Part shown: positions 5,101-57,244 of the stretch, in pieces
How the letters are laid out: each line of letters begins with the position of its first letter
Position numbering within the stretch: the first letter of the stretch is position 1
NCBI GenBank assembly: GCA_001692895.1
Contig: KV748252.1
Coordinates: 1-64,000 of the forward strand
From: Cenococcum geophilum 1.58
Lineage: Eukaryota; Ascomycota; Dothideomycetes; Gloniales; Gloniaceae
Length of the DNA stretch: 64,000 bases
Direction: 5' to 3'
Notes under the pieces: model-generated
Seen by the model: only the letters and a program-made list of their open reading frames with translations
What the model was told of the DNA's origin: nothing
Databases searched by the model: none
Program-made: the position numbers and the translations under genes

Positions 5101-5139
5101 GAGGAGCAATAAAGCAGGTAATAAGGCCCAGAGTTAGTC

Positions 5140-6150: not shown

Positions 6151-6184
6151 AACNCCCTATGCATNCCCCTCAAGCCACACTACT

Positions 6185-6430: not shown

Positions 6431-6434
6431 AGGA

Positions 6435-12752: not shown

Positions 12753-13160
12753 ATATAGTTTATAAATTATATATTAAGTAAATTATATTAAAATTTAATA
12801 TAGTTAAAATATATATATTTATATTATAAATAAAGTTTTTATATAATAAATTAAGGCCATAAAATACTTTATTATAAGTAAAATTAAGTATAAAAAATAT
12901 AATTAAGCTTATTATTATATCTAAATATAAAATATAATTTTTTTTGTATAGATAAAAAGTAAGCTTCTTTATTTTATATTATAACCAACGATATTTTTTA
13001 AATTTTATTTTATAAATGCTTTTACTTTTTATATAATAAGCTATATTAAATTTTTTATATTAATTGCTATTATAGTAATTAAGTTATAAGGATTTTTAAA
13101 AAATTCTATAAATTTTTTTTCAGAACTATATNCAAGCTAACTATATATATAAGCCGGTTA
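12753..13160. other. AT-rich core of the inverted-repeat element
   Basis: Very AT-rich, no coding frame or repeat seen. It separates the Copia insertion from the right inverted-repeat arm, so it is the remaining inside of that element. Confidence 0.5.
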
Positions 13161-13491
13161 CCTATATATTAAAAAAGCTTATTTATATTATAAATATAGA
13201 TATATATAAAATCTAGCTATATAATGGCCTTATTAATAATATTATTATTAATATTAAGTTTTATTAAAAAAGTGCTTTTTTAATCTAACTTTAAGTATAT
13301 ATATTTTATAATATTTTATAATATTTTTATATAAAATTATAGTTTTAGTATTTAATAAGCTATATTTAAAATTTTATAAAATTCTATTAAAAGGTTATTA
13401 AGTTATAGGTGGTATAAAAAGGTGTATTTGGGCAAATTTTGGTGAGGAAAGACCGTGCCTTGAGTGGGAACGTGCACGGAGTGGGGAGAAC
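13161..13491 (-). repeat. Right arm of the ~330-bp inverted repeat
   Basis: Reverse complement of 6435-6763, ending CGGAGTGGGGAGAAC at the boundary with the next minisatellite. The short frames with the same translated end on opposite strands in both arms follow from this relation. Confidence 0.8.
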
Positions 13492-13690
13492 CCGTACACG
13501 AAGCTCTGCGTACAGAGGCTCTGCACGAGCTTCTGCACGAGCTTCTGCACGAAGCTCTACACGAAGCTCTACACGAAGCTCTGCGCAAAGCTCTATACGA
13601 AGCTCTACACGAAGCTCTACGTACAAAGGCTCTGCACGAGGCTCTGCGCGAAGCTCTGCGTACGGAGGCTCTACACGAAGCTCCGCATGA
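13492..13690. repeat. 12-bp minisatellite, GAAGCTCTACAC type (right block)
   Basis: Same unit and same plus-strand orientation as 6185-6430, although the adjoining arms are inverted. The simplest reading is that the inverted-repeat element inserted into an existing array. Confidence 0.85.
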
Positions 13691-25295: not shown

Positions 25296-25462
25296 TGCTG
25301 GTCATATAGGGTGACTCACCAATAACAACTACTCGAGTAGGTTATAGTAATATTGGTTAATATGCTTATATCCATTAAAATAAGAAAGGGCGAGGAGCTT
25401 AAAACTCCTCACCACGCTAGTGCCGCGGCGTCACGTGACAACCGCTTACCTCATTTCTAACA
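25296..25462 (-). repeat. 3' LTR of the Copia at 25296
   Basis: 167 bp, read on plus from TGCTGGTCATATAGGG to TTCTAACA; pairs with 31050-31216. Confidence 0.85.
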
Positions 25463-31049: not shown

Positions 31050-31216
31050 TATTAGTTATATAGGGTGACTCACCAATAATAACTACTTAAGTAGGTTATA
31101 GTGATGTTGATTAATATGCTTATATCCATTAAAATAAGGAAGGGCGAGGAGCTTAAGACTCCTCGCTACGCTAGTGCCGTGGCATTACGTAACGACCGCT
31201 TGCCTCATTCCCGACA
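31050..31216 (-). repeat. 5' LTR of the Copia at 25296
   Basis: 167 bp ending TTCCCGACA on plus. The adjoining minus-strand leader begins CTGATTAGCGGTTAA, a candidate primer-binding region also seen next to the LTRs at 582 and 57051. Confidence 0.85.
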
Positions 31217-35406: not shown

Positions 35407-35616
35407 TGTCACGGCTTATATAAATGCCTCTGAACCAAAGCTTGTAGAATGCTGTATTACGAAGATACTAAGCTAAAGAGAAGGAAAAGGGGTTGCTAGG
35501 ACCGGTGTAAATAAATATATAGGGTAAGCCGCTAAGGCGCTAGCTTTAGGCGGGCCAATCGTAGGTTGGCAGAATTTGGCAAAATTTGGCAGGTAATGTG
35601 CGATAGCGCCGTTATA
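35407..35616 (-). repeat. 3' LTR of the minus-strand Gypsy
   Basis: 210 bp; on minus it has a CCAAT-like GATTGGCC followed by GCCTTAGCGGC and a TATA-like CCTATATATTT. Further copies are at 42069-42278 and about 50428-50636. Confidence 0.9.
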
Positions 35617-38600
35617 TTACCCCCCTCTTTAAAAGAAAGCCTGCCCTTAGGCTTAGTTAGAAATAGGGTAATACTAGGCTTATAAACGTAGGATTATAAA
35701 ATATAAAATAAGGAGATAAAAGGGGATATAAGTATATCCAGACTACGTATAAAGGGCGATTGTGGGCTAAGTAGAAGCACTAGGCTAGAAAGAGTAGCCG
35801 CTAAAAGTCTTAGCATAGATCTAACTAATTAGATAAGTTTAACCGGTGGTTAAAGTTCCTAGACATCTGAAATTTTACGGTACTAGCAGAAAACGGTAGA
35901 ATATGGCAGAATTTGGCAGATAGCTGTATTAGGGCTTTGGGGCGTTTTTATCCCTATGTTCTTCCGGTAACTTATTATCTTTATTATACTAGTATTCTAT
36001 CTATTCGTCTAGGTACTTTAGGGGTCTAGGCGTATTAGGGTATTAGTTATAGAATTCTTTAAGCTTCTGGGGGTAGCCTATAAAGTTCTATATAGGGTAC
36101 TAGGTTAGGTTAGGATTGTAGCCCTTTTATTAAATATAGTATTTTAGCGTTCCCCGTACTATCTTATAGGCTAGTATTTTATTAACCTCCTATTTATTAT
36201 TACCGTTTACTTAAACTAGTAGGGGAGGCTCGTTCTTTTGTCTAGGTAATAGGTTGTTTATAGCTTTCCGTAACTTATCTGGTAAAAAAATAGGGTAAAC
36301 CCTAATTAAATCTAGGAGCTTTATCTTATATAAGTTGCCTATCTTCTTAAGAACCTTATACGGTCCTGCTATCTAGTAGTCTAGCTTATGGCTAGGTTGT
36401 TTGGTCTTCTAATTCCTTATTATAACCTAGACTATATCGCTAGGGGCAAAATTGGGCTCTTAACGGTATTTGTTTACCTACTGTTTTATTGACTTTTAAG
36501 CTTTTTCTAGGTTCCCGCGGGTTACTATCTAGGCTTCCTCTAATTATTTAGCGTATTGTTAGGCCTTAGTAAAGAATAGCTTCTCTTATATAGTCTAGGG
36601 TTTTTCTAGCCTTTTCCAGTTAAAGCTTATGCGGGGTAAGTATCCCATTTTTAGCTAAATTAGGGCAAACCCTGTGGAGTTATGGGGTAGGGTTGCTTGC
36701 GCGTAGTTTATTAAGGGTAGTAATTTAGACTAGTTGTTTTAGAAATAGTTAACGAAGGGCCTAAGCCTCTGGTTTAGGTACTAATTTATAATCTCTATCT
36801 AACCGTTTATCTAGGGGTAATAAGCCGTAGAAAGCTTTAGCTTAATGCCTAGGATTTAGGTAAACTTATTCCAGAAGGCCGATATAAACTATAGCCTATA
36901 ATTAGATATAATAGTATCTAGTAGTCTATAGATTTGGTAAACGTAATAGATATATAGCCGGGCTACCTCTTTTACATTAATGTTTTTATAATAAGGAATT
37001 AAGAACGGGCGTTTACTAAAGCGGTTAACTATAACTATAACTATATTATATCCGTTACGGTCTCTAGGTAGTTCGTAGAAGTCTATAAAGATATACTACT
37101 AAGGGTGCTCTAGTATTGGGAGTAGCTTAAATAGTCCTAGGGTTTTATCCTATAAGATTATAGCTCTCTAGCAGTCTTCGCAGTTCCGTATATATTAATT
37201 GATATCCGCAACTATTCTTAGCTAGTAGTAGCGGTAGTTAATAATTTTATGGGTCTTGTTCTTGCTAGGGTGTGCTATAAAGACTTAGTAATAAGCTTTA
37301 TAGATTAGTTTAGTCCGTAGATTGTTGATATTAGGGACTATAAGCCGCTCCTAGTATAGGAGCAATCCTTCCTCCGTCTTAAAATTAGGGTCTCCTTTTA
37401 TAGCTTATTTACGGAGGGCCCTTAAGGTATTAGCCGTGCGGTTTACAGTTAGGAGGCGGTTAATTAGCCCTATTAGCTTATCTAATAACTCCTCTATTAG
37501 TGCTAGTTTGTTTTGCTAGGAGTTTAGCTCCTTAAGGATCCGCGGGTCAAGCTGTTCTAGATAGAAGAGGGCGTACGTTTAATATTGGGTCTTTAGCTTA
37601 TTCTAGGGTCCTATATCTTATTCTCTTTAGGTTAAGGTATTAGCCTTAGAGTTTTGCTTGCTAGAATAATATATAATCGTAAAGAAGAATTAGGAGAGTA
37701 TTTCGGCCTACTAGGCTTATTATTTAATAAGCTACTTTATAGTTATAAAGTACTCTAGGGCTTTGTAATCTGTATATATCTTAATTTAGGAGTTCGTACC
37801 TTTGAGCTCTACACGCTATTAGGAGAGTGATTAAATAATAGCCAGCATTTCTTTGTCGTGTACTTTGTAGTTATACTTAACCGGGTTTATTATCTTTAAG
37901 AAGAAAGCTATAGGGTACTATTTGCCGTCTAGATATAACTATAATAGGATTCCCGCTACGACCCTATTAGAGGCATCCGTTTCTAGCATTAATTTAAGGT
38001 CTAGGTTATAGTAATAAAGAATTAGGGAAGAGATAAGCCGATCCTTTATCTCTTTAAAGGCTTTTATATAGCTATTATTAAAGACAAAAGGCGTGTCCTT
38101 CCTAGTTAGTCGTATAAAAGGTTTTGCTATAATCCTATAGTTATGGATAAACTAGCGGTAGAAGTTATAAAAGCTAAGGAAGGATTAGATTTCTCTTACT
38201 ATATAAGGGGCTTTTAGTTACGGATTGCCTCTACCTTCTTAGGGTTAACCTTAATTCCTTCTATAGTTACGATAAACCTAAGGTATTTTATACGTTTTAC
38301 CCTAAACTCGTATTTCTTAATATTAACTTATAAGCCCGCGTTCCGTAGTCTCTCTAGAACCTTCTTAACATAAACTTAATGCTTAAGTTCGTTGTCTAAG
38401 TATATAAGAATATTATCTAGGTATACCGTGCAGAATTCGTCTAGGTAATTAAAAAGAACGTTATTTATATACCTTTAGTACGTAGCTAATCCGTTTATTA
38501 GTCTAAAGGAAAGAACTTTATATTTATAGGAGCCATAACGGGTACGGAATATGGTTAAATCTTTAGATATGGGGTCTATTCCAATTCGGTAGAAAGCTTA

Positions 38601-40224
38601 ACGGATATTAAGTTTAGTAAAGATCTTTGCCCAGCTTAGACGTGTAAGGGTTTTATTAATTAAAGAAATAAGATACCAATCCTTTTAAGTAATAGCGTTT
38701 AGCTTTTAATAGTCGATGTAAAAGCAAAGGCCTTTATTAGGCTTTTTTATAAATAGGATAGGGGAAGTAAAAGGGGCTTAACTTGGCTTAATAAACCCTT
38801 TATCTAGGTTATTAATTAAGTACTACTTTGTTGCTTTTAGCTTATTTATTAATTGTTAGTAGAGGGGGCTATAACCTAGCGAGTTATTAGCTTTTAATTA
38901 AATCTTATAATCGTATGTTTAGTAAGGGGGTAACTTGTCTAAAGCCGTCTTTAAAAATATATCCTTATAATTTGTATAGATAGTAAGAAGGAGGCGTTTA
39001 ACTAGTTCCTTGTCGGTTTCCGCGGCTGGCTCTTCCTCCCTATTATTAATAATTTGGTTAATCTTATATAGGCTTATTATAAAGACCTCGTTGTCCTTCT
39101 GGTACATATTAAAGTAAAACGCTATAGCGCTAATTACGGCAATATCTACGGTGGGGGGGTTATATAACAATAGGGGCGTATATAACTTTATGGACTTCTA
39201 GGGCACTAGCGTTATTATTACTCCTTTTAACTCCTATTGTATCTTTTAGAGGTTATCCCTTATATCCTGTTAATGCGTTCTTTTCTATACTAGTTAGATC
39301 TGCGCAATTTAGACGTCATTTATATTACTATCTGTCCCGCTTCTATATATAGAGTCCTCTTTAAACGTAGCGCTTTGGGAGAGTATCTTTATTAGTACGG
39401 AGTTCTTTTTAGCTTCGCGGCGGGCGTTTTCTTAGGTAAAGGCTGGATTACGGGCCAGGACATCCTACTAGTAGGTAGGGTTAGCCCTTACGGCTAGTGT
39501 CTTACGGTCGGTTCGGATTTCCCTAATAAAGGAGGGCAACCTTAGTCTATTCTCCGGCTAGACGAACTATCTTTGTTGTATATTTAACTAAATATTAAAA
39601 TAGGATATCTATTTTCGTCTAAGGATTATATCGTAGGACCCTAGGTCTAGGATATAAAAGGGGATGCTGTATTAGCGTTATCCGTTAAGAGTAATATATA
39701 ACTTTAAGACGTGGGTAATAGGCTAACCAGCTTAGCCGTTATAGCCTTTTACCTAGATAGGCTTCTCTAGTTAGATGGCCTCTGCATTTAAAAACTTAGC
39801 AATATTATTTGTATAGGCAGTGTTTATAAAGGTAAAGCTATTTACTCTAGTGTTAATAAGGGCGGTTATATTAACTCTATATCTATTTTAAGATACTATA
39901 TATAGAACCGTAAAATGCTTTCTACCTATTAACTAACTAAGATTAATCTCTTTAAGATCAATAGGGTACCCTAGGGGGGAGTCTTTCCCTAGGGTTCTTC
40001 TTTTTCTAACTTATCGGACGTTTCTCTTACCTCTATCTCCTTAATATCGCCTATATTCTTTAGCTCTGGGCAAAATAAAATAAAGTGACCCTCCTTATTG
40101 CAGTTATAGCACGTAGCCGAGGCAAGATTAATCGGAGTATTACGGTAAATACTAGTTAATGGCGTGGTACGTAGCTAGTCGGGCGTTACTTACTAGTGCG
40201 TAGTTATAACCGCCTTTAGTGTAA

Positions 40225-40909
40225 GGGCGTGTTCGGTTGCAGCTCCAGATTGAATCTGGAGGCTTCAGAACCGAGTTGATCTGAAGCCTCAATCTGATCT
40301 GGAGGTGGGTGTTCGGTCAATCTGACGACTTTCTGATCTGGAGCTCCTCCAGATCGGCAACCGCGTCAAATTCGCACGCTTTACCGTATATAGTAGTTGA
40401 ACTTGAGCTCTTGGCGTCAGATCAACCTGTAGCTTTTTTCTACAGGTCAATCGTCAAGTCGAATCTGGAGCTCTGCTCGTGCGCCCGTCCACCAATCCAC
40501 CATGCTCCCACCGCTACCGCCCTTACTAACGACGGTATTACTACAGCAGCTGCAGGCCCTATACGATGTCCTCTTTTTAATTCTTTCTATCGCCATTTAG
40601 ATCTAATTAGGTAGAAGATATTGCTAATTTTAACCCTTATCTAAGGCCTTTTTATTAGAATAATTAACCTGTAAAGAGTACATATATTATTAGATCCCGC
40701 AAGAGTCACTTAAGTTCGCGAGTACTCTCTGTCTTTTTGGCAGTATGGCGTTATGGTGTGGGACACGTTACATAACCGAACAGTCGGCTTTATTTCAGAT
40801 TGAGCACAACCACCAGATTAAGCGCCACTAATTATCTACTAATTAACGCCGGTCAAAGCACGGATCAACGTCAGATTGAAAAAGCTCCAGATTGCAACCG
40901 AACACGCCC
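40225..40909. mobile_element. PIF/Harbinger-type MITE
   Basis: A 685-bp element with inverted ends GGGCGTGTTCGGTTGCA and a TAA target duplication (40222-40224, 40910-40912), both typical of the PIF/Harbinger superfamily. The subterminal region is rich in hairpins (CTCCAGATTGAATCTGGAG; GGCTTCAG with CTGAAGCC). A 101-codon open frame at 40309-40614 has no recognisable domain and no transposase features. Unlike the surrounding Gypsy it is GC-balanced and shows no RIP bias, so it inserted late or was below the length or copy threshold for RIP. Confidence 0.88.
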
Positions 40910-42068
40910 TAAGAGTAGTTATAGCTTGTCTTTCTACTTTAGCTCCTATAGGTGTGGCTAGCGAGTTCCGATCGCTATAGAGTTGCTTCTACTAATTAGG
41001 GCAGGCGTTAATCCGCTTTAGTTCTAAGTCTAATAATAGGCAATAAGCTGCGAGTCTTTTATAGGTTAGTAGGTTATTTAAGGTTACAGCGATCTTTTCT
41101 TATAGCCGGATTATTAGCTTATTGTATAGGTCTAATTAGTAGTTCTTAAGGGGAACCTAGCCTTCTTCTGCAAGGTATAGAAATTAAGTCTAGAATTTAG
41201 TAAAGGGTTAGTTTAGTTTTATTATTAGGCGATTATAGTTATAACAGGTATCCTGTACTTTGTTTGGGTTAATATAAATAGCTACTAAGTGCTATATTAT
41301 CTCGTTAATAGATATAAATCGGATAGGGGAGTTGTCCTTAAACTTGGCTTAAAGGTGCCGTTGGGCATCCCTAGTGGTTCGACCAAAGAGGTAGAGCATT
41401 TTAGCTTCTTTAAAAAGGAAATAGTTATAGTTAACACGGAGCTTTCCTTATACTTAAATCCTCTAATTTTTAAAGGTGGAGTCTATCCCGTTAGATAAGT
41501 AGTAGGGGGTTAGGGAGCTTAACGGACTTTAATTACTTTGTTATTATATCCGTACTCCCTGGTATATTACATTTAGTGGAGTAAATAGGTCGGCTAGGGC
41601 TTTAAGAAGGGGAAGCCAGGCTATTTTATAGGGCTATAAAGCTTTCTAGGATCTCTTATAGGGTCTCTTATATATTTCTTGCTTTAAGATAATTAGCTTC
41701 CTAGCTAGCTATAAGGGCGCGAATCTACTCGCGTATATCTACGATATTATTATTATCTTTAATTTCTAATCCTAATTAGATCTTAGGTTCCTCTTAGGTA
41801 GAGGCAGCTCTCTTAGATAAGCTTGCTTTAGGTGCCATTATTAGCTTCCTAAGGTTTATTAGTATTATATGCTTTAGTTTCGATTCTGGGGGTATAGGTC
41901 CAGTTCTATCTAGCTTATAAGGTGGGATATTATCTAGGCCTTCCCAGGTAATGTAGAGTTATTTTAGTGTCTAAGTATAGCGCGTTAATACGTCGTTGCA
42001 GATAAAGTTTCTTTAGGGTGGGATATTTTTAAGGCCTTCCTAGGCAAGGTAGGGTAAGCTTAGTATAA

Positions 42069-42278
42069 TGTTATGGCTCGTATAAATGCCTCTAAACCAA
42101 AGCTTATAGAATGCTGTATTATAAAGATACTAAGCTAAAGAGAAGGAAAAGGGGTTGCTAGGACCGATGTAAATAAATATATAGGGTGAGCCGCTAAGGC
42201 GCTAGCTTTAGGCGGGCCAATCGCAGGTCGGCAGAATATGGCAGAATTTAGCAGGTAACGTGCGATAGCGCCGTTACA
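42069..42278 (-). repeat. 5' LTR of the minus-strand Gypsy
   Basis: 210 bp, paired with 35407-35616; differences between them are mostly transitions and are more numerous than in the Copia at 6768. Confidence 0.9.
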
Positions 42279-43260
42279 ATTTATTAGCGACTTTTAACAA
42301 TAATTAAGTAAACGCCTTAAGATAATCTTGCAACTAAGCTTAGCATAATATCTAGAAACGGACGGCTAAACTAAAATTATTAACGCTACCGTAAATAAAT
42401 ACCTTTATACTTTTGTTAGCTTTATATAAAACAACTAGGTTAACTACCTACCGCTTATTAAGTTTACTATAAATAACTAAGTTAATAAGAGTATAGGTAT
42501 CTCCCCGTTTTTTATAAACTATAGCTTTAACCCTCACCTCAGAATTAAGCCTACTAGCCCCCGCCTATTAACACTATTAGTATAAGTAAAGAAGAAGTTT
42601 TGTTACGTAGACTCTATAGCTAACTACTTTAAGCGAATATTAATATAGCTTAAGGCCCTAGCCTAGATTTTATAGTAACGCTATAAAGATAATGCTAATA
42701 CCTATAGGGATAAGAGCGCGTTATTCTATAAAGGCGATATAGTTATAGTTAGCTTAAAAAATATAAAGATAAATAAACCTAAGAAGAAATGGGACGATAA
42801 ATAGGACGGCCTATACCCCGTACTCGTAGTATACTAAAGGATAGTTATAGTAGACCTTCCGGACTATATCTAAGTAAATAAATTCTTTTATATATCTAAG
42901 GTCCGCCTTTAGGCTGCTAAAGAGATCTCTAGCTAAGCAAATATTAATATTATAGAGCGCCGTAATATATAAGGACGAGTGGTAGAGAGAGATAATAACG
43001 GCAATATAAAAGATAAATAGGAGTTTAAGAAAATCCTTAATATATATAACGAAGACCCCTAGGGCCTAACTTATAAGATTAAATGGAAATATTATAAGGA
43101 TATAACCTAGCAGCTAAAGGAAGACCTAAAGGGTTACGAATAAGCTATATAGCGCTTTTATAAGCAATACCCTAAGAAGCTAGGACCCCCAAACTGGGCA
43201 TAAAATAAGGAAAAGTTACGCTAAGGTCGCGGCCAACCACCGTATTAAAATTTATAGTGG
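42279..43260 (+). mobile_element. Ty3/Gypsy fossil, integrase end and chromodomain (right part)
   Basis: Resumes the integrase interrupted at 35406, with E-T-D-G near 42,356 as in the Gypsy integrase core, and ends with a chromodomain-like stretch at about 43,050-43,190 (K-I-K-W-K-Y-Y-K-D readable). Marks the element as a chromovirus. Broken like its left part. Confidence 0.8.
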
Positions 43261-43264
43261 TTAA

Positions 43265-43700
43265 GATGTTATAGAACTTTAACTAGTAGTTAAAGTTATT
43301 TAATTAGCTAAATTCTTGCTAAGAAACGCCACGCGGATTAATTTAGGTGGCGGTATAGAGTTCTACTAACTTTACTCACTAAACTAACTAATTAGGATTT
43401 TCTATACCCGGTATAGAAAATCGCTATTAGCTTAGTTAAGGGCGGTAAGCGGAACTAATATCTTTATAGTAAAAAATAGACAACTCTATACACTGCCTAT
43501 TTTTAAGTTATTTATTTAGTTTAGGGACTAAACTATCTAGGGAAGAGGAGTACTGTTATAGCACTAGCCTAACGCATACTGTTTTATACTATCTTATACT
43601 ATTTCCTACTATTAGCTAGCCCACCACTAGTGACTTAGCGGCCGGCCCTACTATTTATATACAATACCCCCTTTCCACCTTCTTCCCCTCTTTATACTAT
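43265..43700 (+). repeat. LTR-like segment with palindromic module
   Basis: Follows the chromodomain. It contains the shared palindrome (43396-43422) and then GACTTAGCGGCCGGCCC and a TATA-like CTATTTATATAC at about 43,650, in the same order as the promoter part of the Gypsy LTRs. Probably the 3' LTR of the plus-strand Gypsy, but no matching 5' LTR or target duplication was found. Confidence 0.5.
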
Positions 43701-43739
43701 AACGTAGTTATTTAGTCTACTTTATTATAGTACTATAAT

Positions 43740-44078
43740 AATACCGGAAGAATATAGAGACAAAAACGCCCTAAAGCTGTCTGCTAAATTCTACTAAATT
43801 ATGCCATTTTCTACTAGTACTGTAAAACTTTAGATATTTAGGAACTTTAGCTGCCAGTTAAAGTTATCTAATTAGTTAGATCCTTACTAAGACCCTTTAG
43901 CGGCTCTTAGCCTATTGCTTTCCATATAACCTATAGTCGCCTTTTATACTTAGTCTAAACGCACTTATATCTTCTTTTTCTTATCTTATATTTTATAACC
44001 TTATGTTTATAAGCCTAGTGCTATCTTATTTCTAACTAAGCCTAAGGGCAGGCTTTCTTTTAAAAGGGGGGGTAATAT
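43740..44078 (+). mobile_element. 3' tail of another Gypsy copy
   Basis: Reverse-complement match to 35,617-35,990 of the minus-strand Gypsy, including the run into a G-rich purine tract (44066-44072). Its 3' LTR is displaced to 50428-50636 by the gag-only element. The upstream body of this copy is missing. Confidence 0.8.
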
Positions 44079-44321
44079 TGTGGTTGGGTAAAATGGGCCG
44101 CTACTTAGTGCCTTGGCATTTTCCTGTATATATTAAGCCTTCGGCTTCTCTCCTTCTCGACATCACGACCCTACCAGTTACCGGAAATACACTCTTTTCT
44201 TTCTTTCTTACTGACTGATTATGACTAACTAACTGACTGACTGACTGACCGACCGACCGACCGACAGACAGACAGACAGCACTGTGACTTTTCCATCTTA
44301 GAGAGGTCGTACCCTCCCACA
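44079..44321 (+). repeat. 5' LTR of the gag-only element
   Basis: 243 bp, TGTGGTTGGG to CCCTCCCACA, with an internal CTGA/CCGA/CAGA tetranucleotide tract. About nine differences from the right copy, nearly all transitions. Confidence 0.92.
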
Positions 44322-47159
44322 TATTTTATGGCATTCCACGTGGGGACGACGGCAAGCTCTTTAGATTAGAAGTCTAGTGCTACATACACGCAGGAACATA
44401 CTACAACTACCAAAGAGCCGCCAGCTGCAGAAGAACAACCAGCTGCAGAAGAACCGCCAGCCAGCCAGACAGACGAGACAGAAGCAGAGAACCAGGCAGT
44501 ATCGGACAGCGAGGGGAACCAGGTAGTCCCTGAACAGAAAGACAGCGGAAAAGACGGACATTAGACTCGACGCACAGGCCAAAGAGTGGCAACAGGAGGC
44601 AAAAGAGTGTCTCGGAAAATTACGAGCAAGGACGTCCAGCGAACAGGCGAGCTAATCAGACGACTTCGACCGGTCGGAATTACCCGATATCTCACCACCC
44701 GCGCGCGCACGAGCATGGCCAGAGCTTTATTGAAGATGCAGAGACGACAAGTAGCTAAGGGCTAACGAGATCTAAGGTATCTGGCGGCGAAGGAAGTTAG
44801 CGCTGCCCTTTAGGAACAGAAGAGAGAACACCAAGAAAGGTCGCAAGCATATAAGATCAGATCTACCCTTAAAAGCTTCCTATTCTGGCTTAGCTTTATC
44901 TTCTTTTAAGTTATCCGGATTGTGTTGGAGGCAGCTTTAGAGGCATTCTGTGAAGAAGCAGATATAGGTAAGAGCGTAAGGCTTAGCAGTACCCTACCGC
45001 ATAAAATAACGGCAGGTCAAAACAGATGGACGTATTAAGACCCAGTGGCCGTAGATGAAGACGCCGTGCTCTCTTAGGAAGACCGACCTCTAGGCGTTAA
45101 GAAGCAGTTAGAAGGAACCGAAGCCTATACTTCTTTTGCTGAGTATAAGCTAACACTAGGACAGCCATCTAGGATACTATTACCTCAGGCGGCAATGCAA
45201 GCAGACCTACCGTAGCGTTTACCCGCGATACCTAGGACTGACTCTTGGCGGACGAAGGACAAGAACCGCGAGGACCGCCTGCAAGCTCCTAAGGAAGCTC
45301 TAGATGCACCTTATAACCAGCAGTCAACAGCTTAAGATAGGATTTACGTTATGGTCTAGCCGATGCTAGCCCTAGGAGCTACTGGAACTCTATACTTTAT
45401 AGGACAGGACGTGTTACAGTTTATTGAGTAGTACGAGCGACTATGCGTCTGACACTATATAACGAGTAAGGAGAAGCACCAGGGCCTTCCGGAGTACTGC
45501 GATTACTGGATAGGGATGTAGATCCGAAGCTTACCTAAATTTATAGCTGGTGACTGGACGGAGCTTGTGAGAAAGCTTAGGGTAGAATACCGAGGAAGTG
45601 ACCAATTTCGATAAATAGAAACGGTAGAATTCTTAAAAGCCTATGTACGGTAGTGTAGGGACAGTCCGCTAAGTAGCGTACGCGAGTACTGCAGGTAGTT
45701 CATACTGATCTCCTAAAGGGTTACGCAGGCAGGCAATCTAGGGAACGCTTAGCGAGGGTACTGGTTTATAAAAGGACTTCCGCTTAAATATTAAAGGCAT
45801 GCTATGGCTAAAACGGGAGCTAATCTAGATAGATAAGAGTCCTTTGACTTCTATCAGTTATAGAGAGCTATAGAGGACAGGCTTAGTTCATATAAGGGCG
45901 CGGATCGTCTATCGAAAATGGACCTTAAGGAGCAGAGCCTTCGTTAGCTGGTTAAGCAGTTCTGTAATCAGCAGCCAGTTATAGGCAAAGATGCTACCCT
46001 TCGACCACCTGCGATCTTTTAGCCAAATAAGACAGCTGACGCCCGTTAAGCCAGCTAGAAAACGGACCCAGTTGGACCAGGTGTACACGGAGGAGCCCTA
46101 ATATAGTAGCAGTTACCCGCCACAGATCAAGCTGCAGTTTAAAGCCTAGCATAAGGATATAGCCTGGCACCAGGATACGAAGACTGGCAGAACAGCACCC
46201 GGCCTCCGCAAGACTTTTAATATCCGCAGGACTTCCGATATCCGCAAGATTCTACTGCCTTTGGACGACCGCAGCGGGACGCACGGGGTCAGCAGGATGG
46301 CACGCGATCTGGCCCGGGCCGATAGACCTATTTTGGATGCGGAGGAAGTCACCGTTTCACTAAGTACGAATATTAGGGGTTAAAGGATCTTATTCAGCAA
46401 GGACTTGTACATCTGTCTGATCGAAGAAGACTAGTAGCTGGGATATGCGATCGGCCTGGACCTGTACTTCCATGGCTCGGTAATAAAGGACGACTGAAGG
46501 GTATCAAGGACTGGCTCCGTACGTACTAAGGAACTAACCTAGATAAACCAAGGAAAGAACAGACGCAGCAACCAGCTTTCCATAACGGAGCAGCGCTAAA
46601 GATCAGTAACGAGAAAAGTACGAACTGGGGGGACTACTATTAGAATCGCCTAACCCTTAAAGACAGCCGCGCAACCAGGACAGCTATTAAGCTATAGGAG
46701 AGCAATGTACAACCAGAAGACTATATGCAGATTAGGTCACGGCCTACGAAAAAGGCAGCTGAAGCTAGGGAGGACTACTATTAGAATCGCCCGACCCTTG
46801 GAGACGGTCATTAGAGACGGTCATTAGAGGCGGACGCTTAAAGCAGACTCTACAGCAGGTGTAGAATGTTCGACTAGGGGACAGTCAAGTTCTAAGGTGG
46901 GGGAGGGGACGTAGGTGGCGGCCGTATAAAAGATTTCTATTTGTCTGCTTAATTACAGTATTTCCTAAAGCTCCTTTTCTTGTTTATTTTCTTAATTACA
47001 ACGCGTTAAGACGCGTCAATCGCGACGACCTGCTGCAGAGATGTTAGCTCAGCTTACCGCCTGTCACCGAGCCAATAGCGATTTTCTATCCCGGGGATGG
47101 AAAATCCTAATTAGTCCATTCAGCAATAGAGCCGGCAGAACTCTACACCGCCCCTGGAA

Positions 47160-49460
47160 TTCGATAATACAGCTGCACGACGAGAACGGCACCAAGAGCC
47201 TCAATTGATTGCACGGATACAGAGCCGATTGTACGATGCAGAGCTAGACGCAGAGCTGCATGCAGAGCCTTAATCGAACGACTGCACGGAAGCCTTGATC
47301 AATCGAATGACTGCACAGAAGCCACGGTCAGTCAAGGAATCAAACCAAGCCAGAGCCTCAATACCAGCACGTCACGTCACTAAATCAAATCAGTCGAATG
47401 TCGTTAAATTAGAGCCTTCGACCGGGCCGACCTTATTCCTTATTCAAACAACAGCTAATCGCAGCACGACTATCACTGCCATCCGAATTCAGCGCTGCAC
47501 CAGCTGTATGACGAGAACAGACACCGCGGCAAGGAAGGGACCTATACAAGGGCAGCAGCATAATATTAGAAAACGGGCGCCGCAGAACGGTAAAGCGGTA
47601 TACAAAAGAGGCGCTAACAAAGATGCTCCGCAAGAGATTGTACATAGGGCGCAGATAACCACGTTAAGCCTAAGCCATTACTACACGACTGAAGACAGGA
47701 CCGAGCCGTATCTGGCTAAGCTAGTAAAGGACCTTGTCGAGAATTATAAGGGAAACAGGAATTGGACGTACAGGAGCCAGCGCTTTTCCTCAGAGGTCGT
47801 CTTGACGAAGGACCGTGTTGTAGACATAAGGGCAAGGGATATGCGACGGAGGTAGTCACAACAGCCGAGAAGCTGCCACCGGATGACAAAGAGACTGGAA
47901 GCAGAAGACAGCCCCTAGAAGGCTCTTAAGCTAAAAGAAGATCAAGGACACGTAAGCGTACTACCAGCAGCGAGGGCAAAGGAGCAGCCGTAAAGACCTA
48001 AGATACACCAAAGAAGCCAAGAGCAAGGACAGTTCAGAAAAGGAAAAAAAGCAGCTGTCAAGGACGTCTTATGAAAGCGCTAGGCCTGTTATAGTAGTTC
48101 AGAGGAAGCTACCGTTAGTGCTCGCAAAGGAGGAAGTCTTAGGACAGGTCTCTGGATTGGACGTCTGGAGGATGCCGAGAGCCTTAATTATACGATGCGG
48201 AGCCTCGATCGATTGCATGGATGCAGAGCTTTAACAGAACAACTATACAGCCAGAGTCTTGATCGATTGTCCGCAGATGCAGAGCCTACGGATGCAGAAC
48301 CCAGGTCGTACGCACAGCAGAAGACACCTTAAGTCAAGCCAGGGCCTCAGTCAAATCCTAATCAGTCGAACGCCGCCTGTACAAGTCAAGTCGTCAAATT
48401 AGAGCCTTCGGTCGGGCCGACCTAATACCCTATTTAAACGTCAGTTAATCGTACGGTCACAGTCAAATCAAATCAGTCACCCGTCGCCGTCAAACGTCTT
48501 TAATCAGCAGTCAAAGATCCTACAATGGCAGACACGCAGGCATGCGGACACTAGGCCTAATCAGGAAACCAGTACACGGCCGGAAGAACATCAGAAGCAC
48601 AGCCAATCAACGTCTTAGAGCCTTTGCGAGAGCTTCTTCCCTTGGCTGTCCCCCCCTTATCAATCGATTGCTGCCCGTCTTAACGCCCACGGATTAGTTA
48701 ACCAGAACGATCTTTCCTGCAGATATAGATACGGAGCTTTACACGGAGTCTCACACGGAGTCGTATATGGACCCTACGGATATAGAGCAGGTGCAGAGCC
48801 TTGATTGGACAACCGTACGGCAGCTTAACTAGACGCCTATAGATGCGAAGCCTTAATCGAACGGCAGATGCGGAACCTTGGTCGATCGGACGTCTACACG
48901 GAAGCTTTAATCAACTGTCTACGGATGCAAAGCCCCAGTCGTACATACAGCAGAAGACACCTTGAGTCAAGCCAGGGCCTCGTTAAGTCTAGATCAGCTG
49001 AACGCTGTCTCCGCATTCAAATCAGGACAATCAGGGCCTTCGACCGGGCCGACTTTCTACCTTAATCAAACGACCGAACGATCAGTTGCAGCACGTCGTC
49101 GCCAACCAATCAGTCTTCGGCCAGCAGTCAAGGCAGCCATACACGCATACACGCAGACACAGACGCAGACACGGACGCAGAATATGCAATACAGAGCCAC
49201 TAATGCACAGCCAGACGCGCAGCCAGACGCACAGCTAGATGCAGGGCCTAATGCAACGCCACGGACAGAGCCTTAATTAAGAGCCGTGTACGATGCAGAC
49301 CGATGCAGAGCCAGATGCAGAGTCTTAATATTAAACAACCAGCCGAACCACCGAGTCGGGTCATAGCCTCTGCCGTCTTAATCGACTGCCCTACTACCGC
49401 CGCCGCTACTGCTGCTACTCCGTCTGACTGTTCTGTCCCTACTGTCTTAACCAATTGCTC
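47160..49460. repeat. Dispersed GAGCCTTGATCGA repeat field
   Basis: Irregular recurrence of CAGAGCCTTGATCGAT, GATGCAGAGCC and GAGCCTTCGACCGGGCCGACC (47,412; 48,402; 49,029). The last motif also marks the tandem units at 14,095 and 14,521, tying both regions to one family. Confidence 0.7.
47295..47855 (+). CDS. 186-codon open frame in the gag-only element, doubtful
   Basis: Opens at ATG 47295 and closes before 47,858. The first half overlaps the dispersed GAGCCTT repeat and is probably non-coding. The second half (from about 47,640) is less repetitive, basic and hydrophilic, with T-E-D-R-T-E-P-Y-L-A-K-L and R-V-V-D-I-R-A-R-D-M-R-R-R. No signal peptide, membrane segment or known domain. It could be a remnant of captured host sequence or chance in GC-balanced DNA. 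Confidence 0.2.
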   Translation: MINRMTAQKPRSVKESNQARASIPARHVTKSNQSNVVKLEPSTGPTLFLIQTTANRSTTITAIRIQRCTSCMTRTDTAARKGPIQGQQHNIRKRAPQNGKAVYKRGANKDAPQEIVHRAQITTLSLSHYYTTEDRTEPYLAKLVKDLVENYKGNRNWTYRSQRFSSEVVLTKDRVVDIRARDMRRR

Positions 49461-49499
49461 TGTCTCTACTGTTCTAGATCTATACCGTTACTAAATCTA

Positions 49500-49990
49500 T
49501 TTTACTGCTAGATCTGCTGGATCTGCTATAACGCCCAACTGTTCCGACCGACCTATTCCGTTCTAGTTTCCACCGACTACTATTCCAACCAATCTATTCT
49601 ACTGCTGCCGACCAGCTGTTCTACCGCTGCCACTACTGCCATTACTGTTCCGACTGTTCCGTTCTATTATTCCAATTGTTCTACTGCTACCGTTCTTACT
49701 AACTGCTACCGACTGACTACTACCGACTAACTACTACCGACTGTCTACTACCGACTGTCTACTACCGACTGTCTGCCGCTACCAAGATTTCTACTACTAA
49801 AAGTTCTGCTGCTAGATGTCCTACTGTTTACTAACTGTTACCGAATTCTTCTACCGAGTATTCTACCGCGCTAACTGTCTGCCGTATTACTATTGCTACT
49901 ACTATTACTATTGCTGCTGTTACTGCTATTACTACTGTTGCTACTATTGCTGCTACCGTTATTGTTTCTAGTTTACTGCTGTCCTAGTTA
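49500..49990. repeat. CTG/CCG-type simple-sequence region
   Basis: Degenerate trinucleotide-rich sequence (CTACTGCTGCCGAC, then ACTACCGACTGTCT repeated) leading to the 3' part of the gag-only element. No gene. Confidence 0.75.
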
Positions 49991-50182
49991 CTAGGTTAGA
50001 TCTTAGCTATGGGTAACGAAGGGGCACTATAGAACAGTTCTATAGGAGAGCTGAGGATAGGGTTATCTAAGTTCTTTTAGGGGTGTGCTTTCCTTTTTCT
50101 ATTTTTCTTTTGCTTTACTTTCGTTTAGCTATTCTTCTATAGTATAGAACGTTAGGGGACAACGTTCTTAGTGGGGGAGGTA

Positions 50183-50425
50183 TATAGTGGGGTAAAATGG
50201 GCCGCTACTTAGTGCCTTGGCATTTTCCTGTATATATTAAGCCTTCGGCTTCTCTCCTTCTCGACATTACGACCCTACCAGTTACCGGAAATACACTCTT
50301 TTCTTTCTTTCTTACTAACTGATTATGACTGACTAACTGACTAACTGACTGACCGACCGACCGACCGACAGACAGACAGACAGCACTATGACTTTTCCAT
50401 CTTAGAGAGGTCGTACCCTCCCACA
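50183..50425 (+). repeat. 3' LTR of the gag-only element
   Basis: Pairs with 44079-44321; followed by ATATAATGGCGC, the interrupted Gypsy LTR start. Confidence 0.92.
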
Positions 50426-50427
50426 AT

Positions 50428-50636
50428 ATAATGGCGCTGTGGTACGCTACCTGCCAAATTTTGCCATATTCTGCCAACCTATAATTGGCTCGCCTATTAC
50501 TAGCGCCTTAGCGGCTGCCCCTATATATTTATTTACTTCGGTCCTAGTGACCCCCTTTTTCTTCTCTTTAGCTTAGTATCTTTGTAATACAGCATTCTAT
50601 AAGCTTTAGTTTAGAGGCATTTGTACGAGCTATAAT
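50428..50636 (+). repeat. Gypsy 3' LTR, plus orientation
   Basis: Reverse complement of the 210-bp LTR family at 35407 and 42069. It belongs with 43740-44078, from which it is separated by the gag-only element inserted at its first bases. On plus: CCAAT-box-like ATTGGCTCGCC, CGCCTTAGCGGC, then TATA-like CCTATATATTTATTTAC. Confidence 0.88.
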
Positions 50637-51246: not shown

Positions 51247-51440
51247 TGTTGGAAACACAGGGCAAATCACCAATACTACTCGAGTAGATACAGTGATGGA
51301 AAAAGTTGTTGTTCTAGATAGGGGAGGGTGAGGAATTTAAGGTTCCTCACCACGCTAGTGCCGCGACGGCACGTGACGGTAAGTTGCCTTACGTGACGGC
51401 AATATGCCGCACGTAAGGGCAAATTGCCTCATTCCCGACA
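51247..51440 (-). repeat. 3' LTR of the Copia at 51247
   Basis: 194 bp, on plus TGTTGGAAAC to TTCCCGACA, containing three short units of the type TACGTGACGGCAA that are absent from the sister's 167-bp LTR. Confidence 0.9.
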
Positions 51441-51577
51441 CTGGCAACTCTTCTTTTTGTGGTTGCTATCTATATGCAAATAGATAGTATACGACAATAC
51501 GACCGTGGGCAGACTATGGCAGAATTTGGTAGGTAATACGCCTTATTCTGCCGACCCAGACTTCTACTAACCAATTA

Positions 51578-51606
51578 CGATTTTCCATCCCCGGGATGGA
51601 AAATCG
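51578..51606. promoter_or_regulatory. 29-bp palindrome in a shared module
   Basis: CGATTTTCCATCC, three bases CCG, then GGATGGAAAATCG: 13-bp arms without mismatch. Flanked by GAGCCAAT-type and CGCCTTAGCGGC sequences also found in the Gypsy LTR promoter region. Mutated copies at 25677-25701, 43396-43422 and 47080-47106. Function unknown; could be a protein-binding site or the centre of a small mobile module. Confidence 0.75.
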
Positions 51607-54600
51607 CTATTGGCTCGCTTACTACTAGCGCCTTAGCGGCCCTCGCCGCATCTTCTACTCCCTCTTAACCTAACCTTTAACTCGTATATATAGAGTATTT
51701 ATATTAACAAACGTCTCTAGTACCTTGTTTGGGTTTACCTTCGTTATCGCATCTGCCGGGTTATCTTAGCCATTAATCCATCGAATCTTAAAGAGTTCTT
51801 AACGCTCGTAAGATTGCCGTAGTGCCATAATATTAATTATAAGGCGCTTCTCCTTTATAGTACTAAGCTTAACTAAACACTCGTAAAGGGAATATAAGTC
51901 GGTGTATATAATTGTAGGGATAATAGGGAGTTTAAGTCGATCTATAATCATCTTTAAGGTAGTTCCAATTGCAATTGCTATATTAACTCCGCCGACTATT
52001 CTATATATCTTTAACGCTAGAACGCTTTAAGTAACGCGTTTACTCTTAGTTAAGCTCTAATAGATAAGATTACCGTAGATCGTAAAGTCACTCTCTCCAG
52101 TAGATTCGTTCGCGATAATAATCTTATATCCTAGCTAGGAGCTAAAATCTTTATTATTTGCAAACGATCCATTAATAAATACAAAAAGCTTGGCGGTAGG
52201 AAGGTTAATAGGCACATAGAGCAGTCCTCGATTGAGATGGCTCCTTTACTAAAAAAGACGCTTATTTAGGGTAAGGATGTCCTCCTTAGTTAGTTCTTGG
52301 TGTTAAGCGGCAACAGAGAGATTAAAGGAAGCTTTAGGTTAACAAATAGAAGCCACATAAGCTCCGCAAGCGCGTTACTCCACGTATCCTTACTTTAGAG
52401 AATTAATATTAATAATGTTAATCTTCTTACCTTAACCTTTCTGGCGTAGGGTAATGGAATCCTTATTTAGGGAAATAATGCATCCATTAAAGAGTAATAG
52501 TATTATTAAATTAAGTCTTTCCTTTAGCTTTGCTATAAGATTTACCTTTACTAGCTTATCTTCTTTAAGAGCTAAGAATTGGTCGTCTTCTAAGATAATT
52601 ATATCGTCCGTTTATATACCGATAATTCTAAATGGAGTTCCCGTGGCTGTAATAAGGAAGTAGGGATTAAATGTAGAAGTAGTTATTAAAAGCTTCTCTT
52701 TATAGTGCTTGCTATAAGTAGCCCACTAATAAGTTCCTGCCTCTGCGATTCCATATAGTGGCTTAAGCATAACTATAATTGTATCTTCGGGATATTGGTG
52801 GCGAATTTACTCTAGAAGGTATGCTAGTATTAAGCGCTAAAGGCGTGTCTCTAATTAGGTATAGGCCTAGGTAATATCTCGCAAATAAACTGCCATTCTA
52901 TTCTTTATTAAGGAGGGAGCTAGCGTAATAATAACTCGCTAACTAGCTCGTTAAATTGTCGGGGATTGCGTAAGAATTACTTCCTTACCGTTATCGTTAT
53001 AACCTTAAATAACTAGCCTTAACTTTTTAAATGGGGTATTGGTAGCTTTACCTTTAATCTTATTAACTATTCTTAACCTAAATATGCGAACCCTATTAAA
53101 CTTAGTAGGGTTATACTTCTTAAACTTAAAGACTCCTCTTACAATAAGACCGTTAATCTCCTGCTTATTAGATGCTTAAAAAGGAGCTCCTAGAGTTATA
53201 ATACGGCCTTCCTTTTAGAGCTGTTTTACGAGCTCGAAGTTAGCCTTCTCTTTAGCTGTTATAAAGGCTATTAACAGCTCAACTCTATTCTTAATGGCGG
53301 CAATAAGTTGCCTTTTAAAATTAATAAGGTATTGGCGGTTTTGTAATCCTTTCGGGCGACCTCTACCGCGTTATAGTTGCGGCGTATCTACTACAGTTAT
53401 ATTAGGGTCGTAGTCGCCTTCTAGGGCACGTTAATTGTGGTTCTCCTCTAGGGTATCTTCTAGGGTATCTTCTGAGGTATCCTATAAAGGCTTAAAACTG
53501 TTATCTTTGTAGTAAGGCTTAATAATAGTTAAATGGAATTAAGTAGGTCTATAGGGCATCTAAAGAGTATAAGTCTAACTATTAATTATAATAAGTTTAT
53601 ATGGGCCTAACTATCCTCCCTTTTCACGCCATACGCGTACCTTAGATTGGAGTGGCAGATTAAGCGTAGTTGAGGTATTTAGGCTATTTCTTATTCCTAG
53701 TGCGTTGTTGACCTAGCGCGTAGCGTAGAGACGTCGCACCTCCTTTATTGCCTTACGAATCGCCTTAGCTCGTTATATAATAGAGGGAGATAGTGGAGAA
53801 TTATTAGTTATTTAAGGGTAGGCGCTAAAGACTAGCAATATAGGTATGAGCCTATCTAGGCTAGCGGTATTATTAACAGCCTTAATAGCTATCTATAGAA
53901 TAAGCTCTTTGCTAGCACCCTTTAGTTCCAAAGAAATAATCTTATATACGCGGCGTAATAGCGTATAGTATCGTTCTACCTTTTTAATACTATTATGTGC
54001 CTTAACGGGGACTTCCTTAACCTTAATTGTTATTGCCTTTGCCTATTATTAAAACTCTATAGATAAGAAGTTCTTTTCTACGTTGTAAATAATTTAATTA
54101 GGGGGTCCTAGGTAGATATTAATCTAGCATAATTAAAGAGTATCCTATATATTCCTAGCTGATATATCTTTTAAAAAGCGTGCGGCTTAAAAGGAGGTTA
54201 AGAAGTTAATAACTTGGAGTACTAGCTTATTGCTAAGATATATAACATCTATAATAATATAGAAGTTAAAGTTGTAGTTGTCTTTAAGGGTAAACTTAAA
54301 TCGGCCGGGGGACTTTTGGTTTATTTGGTAGTGATAGCAGTACTTTATAAGATGTTTAATCGCCTTAACCTTAACTTTATAACCTACTTGTTAAAGAACC
54401 CTAAGTAGTTAGTGAACGGATGGGTGGCTAAAATGATAATGTAGTTAACGTAGCTCTGACTTAGTTAAGTGACTTTAAGCAACGCTCCTTTCTAGCTGTT
54501 AAAGGAGCAACTAAGGGTGACCCTACTTGCGTACGATGGGTACCTAATTATCTCCCTAAACAAGTATATTCTTAAGGTTATTAAGCTTAACGCCTAATTT

Positions 54601-57050
54601 ATTTATATTTTGGATATAGAATAGGAACGGGGTATTCGTGGGAATAATGTGGAAAGTAATATATCCTAACGGGGTTTGGACCTTAATTGTGCCGAGAGAG
54701 ATTATAGTACCCTTACTAAAGCGAATTGTATATTAGCCTGCTATTGATTAGTTAATCTAAATAGAACTATTAAGCTGCTAAAGAGCTCGGACTTAAGGTT
54801 CTCCTACTATAGATACTCCTGCGGCTCTAGTATCTAGCATAATACTATAAAAAACGTTCGCCGAGTATCTGTTATTAAAGGAGAACGCGGAACTTTCCTT
54901 TAGCTTATTAAAGATATCTAACCTTATAATAGAATGGAGCGTAGATTGGTTATTAAGGATAGTAACGGTTTGTGTGCCATTTACCTTACTATACTTAGTG
55001 AAGTATTAGTTAGGAGAGTAGTTCTTAATTTCTATATTTATAAGGAGCTGTTTAGCCTCGTTAATCTTACCCTTAAGATATTTTTCGCCTTTATATTGAA
55101 CCAGGAAGCTTTAAAAGTAGGCTATAATAACTTCTTAGTTTCTAACGTTTTGTGCGCTCTAGCGAAACTTATTATATGCCTCCTTTCGTCTATTAAGGGG
55201 GTGTCTAGTTAACTAGCAATTTGGCTTCTTATAAACGTAGTATTTCTTTTGCTAATTATTGCGAAATAAACCTCTATAAGGACCTCCACGATTACTTTAT
55301 AGTTAACGTTAATTATACCCTCTACTATATCCCCTGCTATAACCACTATATATTTAATTAGTCTAGTTATAATTATATTGGTCGGCCGGGTTAATTAAAG
55401 TAGGTTAGAGTTAGGCGTTAAATTACTGTACTTCTTAAGAGCGTAGGGCGGTGCTAATAGAGGATCTTAATTGGGTATATATTCCTTCGTAAGTACTTAT
55501 AGGGTTAAAGAGAGCAAGGTTATATTCTTTAACACCTCGGTATGCGCTAATGACTTAATCGTATAGGCTAAAGTTCTTTTAATATAATTTGGATAAACCA
55601 TACTAAATTATTTAGAGTTAATTAAAGAGCTTTTAAAGATAATCGAGTCGAGAGGTACCTGGGTTTATAGCAATGATTCTTAGGAAGGTAGTCTCTCTCT
55701 ACTCCGATATATACTGCTGCTTATTCTCCTCTATTTTAAAGTGGTATCTTGTTTTATATATTATTTGGTTAAAATTATATCCTTTTTCTGCTAAACGATT
55801 ATAATAGAAGGTACTAGCTCGGCCCTTAAGCATAACTGAATAAGTAATGTGGTATTAATTAGGTTCTAGTTTAACCTTCTAGCAATAGTCATAGAAGATA
55901 CGTAACTTTAAATTGAGGATATTATATAGTTCTCTGCTAAACTTCTTCTCCTATTCCGAATAGAGCTTTATAAGCTCTGTAAGTATTTTTAAGGTGCCTC
56001 TAATTAGTGTTTAGCTGCATTATATTACAGGCTGCAATGGTAATGTAGATCTAGTTAGCAGAGTTTAAAGGTTGTTGGACCGCGAAGCAAGGGGATCTTG
56101 CGCTTATTAGGGGTTGTTAATTAAGGCTGTAGGTTAAGCTGGTTAATATAGGGGAGTTAAAGACAGAGGTGGAGGCGATAGATGTAGAATATTAGAATTT
56201 ATGCCTAGAGCGATAGAGTTAGAACGTGTCTCTAGTGGTGTATTACTTGGGTTCCATCGTAATTTAAGCTTCTTTATAGTGCGTAGTTGGTGCTTAATCT
56301 TTTATAGAGTCTATTTATGCTCTTCCTTTACATTAATAACGTGTTCCTAAATGTTGTCCCTAATACTACCCCCATCTATAGGGATAAATACTCTATACTC
56401 CTAAAGGAAGTTACGGAAGTCCCGCACGATATCTTTATTTATAGAAACCTATGTTTCCTTTGTCTATCCAATAAAGTCCTCCTTTATATAATACTATAGC
56501 GCGGTATTATTGTATTTGCTATCTTTATAGTGTTTTATACGGTGTACTAAGAATCTATTTAGGTCCTGTTACTTGGCGGTTACAAAGTTGGTTATAGCTC
56601 TATCCTATATCTTTGGGTTAATATCTTTCTCGTACTTCTTTAGATAGGTTAACGCCATAGTAGGTAGAATTAACGAGGTGTTGTACGTTAAAGGTAGGTA
56701 GGATTTTCAGTTTTGTAGGATCTCGTAGGTTTACTGTCTAAAGGTGGGCAATTTGAGATGTTGTTCGACGCGTTTCGGACGTCGACTTAGGACCTTAGGT
56801 TTAGTGATACTTCTGACCTAAAGTATTTAACCAAATCTTTGTAAACGTGATTGTTCTGCGTAATAGACGCAACTTGGTATCTCCTAGTACTTAGTAATAC
56901 TTCTATTACTAGTTTTCCGTAAGTTTAAGGTAGTACAGTGTCGCCGGGATCCATTCTATATAAGCGCATATAGCACCCCTATACGAGACTATCTCTTCTG
57001 TCAATAACCTAGCTGCTCTATAGTTAACTGTATATTTAACCACTAATTAG

Positions 57051-57244
57051 TGTTAAAAACATAGGGCAAATTACTAATACTACTCAAGTAGATACAGTGA
57101 TGGAAAAAGTTGTTGTTCTAGATAGGGGAGGGTAAGGAATTTAAGGTTCCTCACCACGCTAGTGCCGCGACGGCACGTGACGGCAAGTTGCCTTACGTGA
57201 CGGCAATATGCCGCACGTAAGGGCAAATTGCCTCATTCCCGACA
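57051..57244 (-). repeat. 5' LTR of the Copia at 51247
   Basis: 194 bp, pairs with 51247-51440. Minus-strand leader next to it contains TTGCGTCTATTACGCAGAAC at about 56,850-56,870. Confidence 0.9.

Follow-up and report, generated by a model that had tools for sequence, protein, structure and literature searches.

How did one palindromic sequence come to be present in retrotransposons of unrelated kinds? The question is raised by the first 64,000 nucleotides of contig KV748252.1 of Cenococcum geophilum 1.58 (assembly GCA_001692895.1), hereafter the window. It is AT-rich (G+C 36%), densely filled with long terminal repeat (LTR) elements, and carries a signature like that of repeat-induced point mutation (RIP), the TA/AT ratio being 1.29–1.94 in every 2-kb block (32 in all). 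The palindrome is found there in two Copia elements, in a Gypsy element and in an LTR element without a detected pol gene, and its sharing by two unrelated kinds of retrotransposon and a pol-less one suggests that small control sequences have been swapped between them.

A profile of the palindromic core, 59 columns long and built on all four copies, identified exactly four cores in the window:

51563–51621, plus strand: core M51, in the 3' noncoding region of Copia2 (profile search and leave-one-out)
51571–51613, plus strand: dyad of M51, containing a perfect 29-bp palindrome at 51578–51606
47064–47122, minus strand: core M47, within the LTR element at 44079–50425 (no pol detected; profile search and BLASTN)
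43380–43438, plus strand: core M43, in the extended 3' region of GypsyB (profile search and BLASTN)
25660–25718, minus strand: core M25, in the 3' noncoding region of Copia1 (profile search and BLASTN)

These are the four palindromes located by an earlier reading made from the sequence alone (the sequence-only reading), and their coordinates were confirmed. The members scored 62.0–69.9 bits, the maximum in 100 dinucleotide-shuffled windows being 15.7 bits, and leave-one-out searches recovered all four (expectation values, E, of 2.4e-15, 1.6e-16, 7.7e-15 and 3.3e-13). With E at most 3.3e-13 for every core, it is excluded that the matches are only short chance similarity. Pairwise BLASTN within the window also found four core pairs with E between 1.5e-14 and 1.0e-10 over 45–57 bp. 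The 13-base arm by itself is not significant: at up to three mismatches it matches 12 times where 7.4 are expected, and a count of 12 was reached in 5 of 100 shuffles. The dyad at 51571–51613 was the best in the window with 19 of 21 pairs, compared to 16 of 18 in the best of ten shuffles. Those at 43396 and 47080 fall within the range of the best dyads of the shuffles, and the one at 25677 was not among the 40 listed of the 66 dyads counted in the window. Taken singly, only one of the four palindromes (51571–51613) is thus remarkable; jointly they are far beyond chance. The similarity among the cores covers also the asymmetric positions 14–16 and 44–46, so that the orientation is defined and descent from a common ancestor is the natural reading of the four cores.

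The elements carrying or surrounding the cores are the following:

51247–57244, minus strand: Copia2, GalEa-type, with LTRs at about 51247–51442 and 57049–57244 and the target duplication CTAAG
51739–51783, minus strand: end of the Copia2 RNase H (RWINGxDNPADAITK)
25296–31216, minus strand: Copia1, of the same family as Copia2, with the target duplication GTCTT
35407–42278, minus strand: GypsyA, with the target duplication ATTTA, probably nested in GypsyB
43194–43741, plus strand: GypsyB-specific segment, about 500 bp without a counterpart in GypsyA, holding M43 and a block P (see below)
44079–50425, plus strand: LTR element with no pol detected, at the edge of the GypsyB 3' LTR, with the 4-bp duplication ATAT

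Copia1 and Copia2 are 81% identical over 5.6 kb and, each having its own target duplication, are read as separate insertions of one family. Both are coded on the minus strand, which places M51 and M25 in their 3' noncoding regions. The homology of the two ends at about the end of pol, soon after RNase H, where a variable segment starts, and resumes near 51482 and 25503. The sequence-only reading had assigned every palindrome to a different element; the kinds of host, however, number three rather than four, as Copia1 and Copia2 are members of one family.

The Gypsy assignment was based on a fragment matching Pfam RT_RNaseH_2 (E 6.2e-9) together with fragments read by eye. An integrase-like tail of GypsyB follows GypsyA at 42679–42801. 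The GypsyB-specific segment, the left edge of which is set by weak matches only (E 7e-4 and 0.002), includes a duplicate of a 64-bp piece of the Gypsy 3' region (43261–43324; E 1.3e-9), and is such as would be expected from template switching or unequal exchange. The LTRs of the pol-less element are 95% identical and, together with the ATAT duplication, would suit a non-autonomous element of the LARD or TR-GAG type. No Pfam family was found in its plus-strand frames, three of the six, that were scanned with stops as X, and this result is uninformative because the degraded Copia frames, with recognisable motifs, gave none either. Its frame of 193 aa at 47274–47855 had no credible Pfam match, and the label "gag-only" earlier given to the element around 47080 was not confirmed. 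A stretch just before its 3' LTR (50153–50180; TAGGGGACA..TTCT.AG.TGGGGGAGG) has a diverged second copy at 46875–46906 upstream of M47 (E 0.014), suggestive of an older LTR end at that place.

Next to the palindrome there is a second conserved block, here called P (ATTGG...CTAGCGCCTTAGCGGC), of which the profile search found six copies in the window:

51606–51642, plus strand: P at M51, overlapping the core; antisense to Copia2; TATATA only at +76
25638–25676, minus strand: P at M25, overlapping the core; sense in Copia1; TATAAT 37 bp past ATTAG
43607–43645, plus strand: sixth copy of P, about 170 bp downstream of M43 on the same strand; TATTTAT 41 bp past ATTAG
35525–35563, minus strand: P in the GypsyA 3' LTR, without palindrome; TATATA at +38
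42187–42225, minus strand: P in the GypsyA 5' LTR, without palindrome; TATATA at +38
50480–50517, plus strand: P in the GypsyB 3' LTR, without palindrome; TATATA at +38

When left out of the profile, the copies scored 20.5–36.5 bits, the maximum in 100 shuffles being 16.3 bits (E 5.1e-10 for M51; 2.1e-10, 3e-10 and 5.1e-10 for the Gypsy LTRs; 2.8e-5 for M25; 1.1e-5 for the copy at 43607). Half of the six lie inside LTRs, all of these in Gypsy elements and all without the palindrome. Three of the four cores overlap P or precede it by at most about 170 bp on the same strand. The Gypsy LTRs at 35407, 42069 and 50428 carry the GAGCCAAT-like and CGCCTTAGCGGC flanks without the palindrome, as the sequence-only reading had claimed; the sixth flank block, at 43607–43645, was missing from its list.

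A TATA-like site follows ATTGG or ATTAG by 37–41 bp in five of the six copies of P and by 76 bp in M51. Among all the 471 ATTGG/ATTAG sites of the window, those in P included, 28 have a TATA-like match at 37–41 bp. The three Gypsy LTRs are not independent evidence for this spacing because they are mutually related. The layout of P is that of a CCAAT–TATA promoter, and its architecture (CCAAT box, conserved 3' block and TATA-like site) supports a promoter-like nature. The promoter-like block proposed in the sequence-only reading is upheld as far as this arrangement goes, but not in its location, as none of the four palindromes lies in a recognised LTR. Also ATTGGCTCG, the edge of block P, adjoins the palindrome in M47 although M47 is without P, which suggests that the palindromic unit departed from a P context.

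A further block, W, was found at these places:

51501–51540, plus strand: block W (GGCAGAATATGGCAGAATTTGG-like; profile search and BLASTN)
35560–35601, 42222–42263 and 50443–50481: block W in the three Gypsy LTRs

Block W is an array of units of about 10 bp (GGCAGAATTT). Besides the LTRs it recurs within the Gypsy 3' region, at 35892–35927 (E 1.1e-9) and 43776–43807 (E 0.005).

The four cores are divided into two contexts, supported by the following segments:

51544–51642, plus strand: context I, inverted stretch of 99 bp matching 25737–25639 in inverted orientation, 51652 onward matching 25743 onward on the same strand
43340–43463, plus strand: context II, block of 124 bp in common with 47161–47039

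The context I copies are 75.8% identical (BLASTN E 2.3e-18) and those of context II (47039–47161 against 43463–43340) 77% identical (E 1.2e-22). Flank comparisons were judged against about 4,000 40-mers drawn from the window. Of the eight comparisons between the contexts, only that of the left flanks of M51 and M43 was nominally low on both sides (p 0.009 and 0.025), and its offsets did not match. As the flanks are unlike across contexts, the sequence common to the four copies, about 55 bp, hardly exceeds the dyad. The left flank of M51 resembles the flank adjoining ATTGG in the palindrome-free Gypsy LTRs (p 0.001–0.009). By these comparisons the P context is found both in the presence and in the absence of the palindrome, which itself stands in two unlike contexts. 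Within context I, the block is reversed between otherwise collinear Copia flanks, and therefore stands in sense orientation in Copia1 and antisense in Copia2. As its divergence (75.8% identity) resembles that of Copia1 and Copia2 (81%), the block may date back to the split of the two Copias.

Exchange of modules between elements, one of the possibilities raised in the sequence-only reading, is supported by the presence of P with and without the palindrome, by the two palindrome contexts and by the target duplications that the carriers have of their own. The explanation that we favour, giving it an even chance, is that a cassette of palindrome, CCAAT box and TATA-like site, of LTR-promoter (U3) origin, has been exchanged via the noncoding 3' regions of LTR elements. 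The cassette would begin with the palindrome (about 43 bp, its outer arms being CCAAT/ATTGG), continue with block P and end in the TATA-like site, and it or its palindromic part would have passed among the GalEa-type Copia, the Gypsy and the pol-less LTR element. The likely route would be recombination or template switching of the reverse transcriptase in the noncoding spacer that separates pol from the 3' LTR, where three of the four cores sit, and RNA templates may have mediated the exchange. The palindrome would be bound by a dimeric host regulator next to a CCAAT-bound complex, the cassette would drive transcription from the LTR, and the inverted copy could have arisen since a palindrome can pair in either direction.

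Several observations weigh against this explanation. No core lies inside a recognised LTR and hence in a demonstrated promoter position today, and no factor is known to bind the palindrome. In Copia2, block P is antisense. Block P is missing at M47, where the 110 bp downstream of the core's own ATTGG also lack a TATA-like match, and the ATTAG of M43 itself has none before +83. The left flank of M25 is unlike that of the Gypsy LTRs (p 0.09–0.79) and, outside the core, only weakly like that of M51 (p 0.15 and 0.28). The whole evidence base is a single 64-kb window, and the activity of its elements is not readable from their sequence because they have decayed by RIP-like mutation.

An alternative to the exchanged promoter cassette is that the palindrome is a tiny mobile element, like a fold-back element or a miniature inverted-repeat transposable element (MITE), of about 45–60 bp, that was inserted into several LTR elements. 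Such elements are short, palindromic and repeated. The sharing of hardly more than the dyad between contexts I and II, and P contexts that lack the palindrome alongside ones that have it, would agree with this, as would the imperfect dyad of M43 extending over 80 bp and an outer inverted repeat of 10 bp around it (43353–43362 and 43482–43491; E 0.5). However, there is no common outer boundary, M51 and M25 sharing 99 bp and M43 and M47 124 bp, and no terminal inverted repeat is present in all copies, the weak 10-bp repeat being confined to M43. The edge of block P, ATTGGCTCG, would need to belong to the element. The edges of the variable segments share one 5-mer in GypsyB, one in Copia1 (ATACT) and none in Copia2, which was informally judged as chance; the comparison covered these three segments. 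Unlike MITEs and fold-back elements, the palindromes thus have no shared terminal inverted repeats, fixed ends or convincing target duplication, and the small mobile sequence suggested in the sequence-only reading was not borne out; we regard it as unlikely. The 10-bp repeat at M43 (GTATAGAGTT) could perhaps delimit a fold-back unit about 140 bp long.

Also rather unlikely in our judgement is that the palindrome alone, about 50 bp, is a self-contained and orientation-independent unit of exchange, a parasite of retrotransposons that brings a host-factor site helpful to its carrier. It would move among Copia, Gypsy and non-autonomous elements during reverse transcription, its dyad pairing the templates either way.

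All copies could instead go back to a single ancient event, a local recombination or gene conversion between neighbours in this cluster. The copies seen span no more than 26 kb, GypsyA probably lies nested within GypsyB, the pol-less element sits at the edge of the GypsyB 3' LTR, and gene conversion may have acted later. Against this, the two Copias carry 5-bp duplications of their own, made at different sites, and that of the pol-less element is 4 bp long, which indicates separate arrivals and disfavours a single recombination in place. The identity of M51 and M25 (75.8% over 99 bp) also resembles that of the rest of the Copia pair (81%). A local origin of this kind appears quite unlikely.

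The palindrome might also act as an RNA hairpin in the transcript (in dimerisation, packaging or stability), its orientation being irrelevant and its sharing due to one common machinery. In RNA folding, strong z-scores were obtained for M51 (-4.98 on the minus strand, which is sense in Copia2, and -4.65 on the plus strand), M25 (-4.32 on the minus strand, sense in Copia1, and -3.22 on the plus strand) and M43 (-3.30), but M47 folded no better than shuffled sequences (z -0.46; 64 of 200 shuffles equally good), and DNA folding gave the same pattern across the copies. Over 76 cells (19 pairs on one axis in four sequences), 93.4% were paired, and three of the 19 pairs were altered on both sides. 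With four sequences only, the controls were modest: 27, 31, 31, 73 and 31 of 500 shuffles reached the five measures, and the pair 16/44 forms in one sequence of four. Of the three double changes, two are of the C-to-T/G-to-A type, consistent with RIP on both strands. The remaining one, a double transversion from C-G to A-T at columns 27/33 in M43, is not explained by RIP and favours upkeep of the dyad, by selection or by conversion from arm to arm. To our knowledge there is no case of packaging shared between Copia and Gypsy elements, and we consider the hairpin explanation improbable.

Convergence, whereby unrelated families would have been selected independently for the same host-factor site, and to which the strong dyad, the CCAAT arms and the dyad-preserving transversion would be suited, is very improbable and largely refuted by the similarity over about 55 columns with asymmetric positions 14–16 and 44–46, and the 99 and 124 bp shared within the contexts point to descent, though selection could maintain them.

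The exchange of a promoter cassette, the favoured explanation, can be compared with known systems. Template switching of LTR elements and mosaic LTRs are already known (PMC1950507, PMC8912925), as is, in fungal Copia, a short hairpin domain shared across families within species (PMC5445492). In the complex LTR retrotransposons of Triticeae, parts of different LTR elements were similarly fused during reverse transcription (PMC1950507), but there whole elements were fused, whereas here a block of about 55–124 bp recurs across superfamilies. In the cis-regulatory evolution of mosaic LTR7/HERVH by inter-element recombination, regulatory blocks of LTRs were likewise swapped between elements; these are subfamilies of one retrovirus family (PMC8912925), while here Copia, Gypsy and pol-less elements are involved and the palindromes lie outside the recognised LTRs.

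The "extended CHS" of fungal GalEa Copia elements, a domain of 33–62 bp conserved between families within a species (PMC5445492), is alike in being a short noncoding dyad domain shared across distant families in one species. The Copias of the window are of GalEa type. According to the same paper, GalEa LTRs are 138–311 bp long and bordered by TGT and CA, and CHSeq1 is CTGATCAGT or CTAATTAGT in 85% of the families, directly after the 5' LTR. The Copia2 LTR of about 196–198 bp, with the sense ends TGTCGGG...CCAACA, fits this description, both copies have the 5-bp target duplication of GalEa elements (CTAAG in Copia2, GTCTT in Copia1), and the 5' LTR is followed by CTAATTAGT in Copia2 and by the derivative CTGATTAGC in Copia1. 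The ADxxTK motif given for the end of RNase H (PMC5445492) is present as ADAITK in Copia2 and decayed to IDVIIK in Copia1. The KSRLVI and QTDD motifs were found only in degraded or partial form (KLRLVI in both copies, TDD in Copia2), and CHSeq2, complementary with an A/A mismatch and 12–41 bp downstream, only as a degraded resemblance read by eye. Pfam searches of three minus-strand Copia2 frames (stops as X) gave no family despite the recognisable Copia motifs, nor did a PDB search with a Copia fragment give a relative. Unlike the CHS, which lies just after the 5' LTR and is described for GalEa elements (PMC5445492), the palindrome is located before the Copia 3' LTR and is present also in Gypsy. 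A link of the CTAATTAG edge of the palindrome to CHSeq1 was considered and dropped, CTAATTAG being common window-wide (22 matches against about 8 expected). For chimeric fungal elements PMC5445492 cites PMC3248453, in whose main text the strings "chimer", "mosaic" and "nested" are all absent. In the literature searches, no title or abstract was met with that described this palindrome or a cassette crossing superfamilies in fungi.

Relatives elsewhere were not detected in the collections searched, none of which was fungal. Two IUPAC patterns of the palindrome had no match in viral_contigs. A relaxed pattern matched 16 loci in genome_contigs, all with bacterial or archaeal titles, which were taken as chance because BLASTN of the window against them (E ≤ 0.01) gave only one match, 23 bp at locus L004 and consisting of the palindrome itself. 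A 17-mer of block P matched three viral loci without further similarity, and longer patterns of blocks P and W had no matches. Protein searches of viral_contigs gave 24 pattern matches with the Copia fragment and 22 with the Gypsy fragment, none of them confirmed. In the window, the Rfam scan found no family at gathering score and the tRNA scan no tRNA.

The remaining parts of the window include other repeats. Inverted arms of 334 bp (6430–6763 and 13163–13496), 94% complementary, enclose LTR-like direct repeats (6768–6989 and 12534–12755) that are 95% identical and adjoined by 12-bp tandem arrays. Arrays of a 12-bp repeat with open frames of 130–211 codons are found at 1586–2111, 4498–5156 and 6135–6539, the frames of the first two being open on both strands. 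At 19437–20476, several 75-bp units about 70–86% alike are placed head to tail.

Since the context exists with and without the palindrome, a comparison of the two states in related genomes would be a direct test of the exchange. Confirmation would provide a defined palindrome as a handle for a host factor needed by fungal retrotransposons, and, if made genome-wide, would mean that regulatory sequences of LTRs cross the divide between Copia and Gypsy as small cassettes. If this is true, the promoter evolution of LTR elements would be a network and not a tree.

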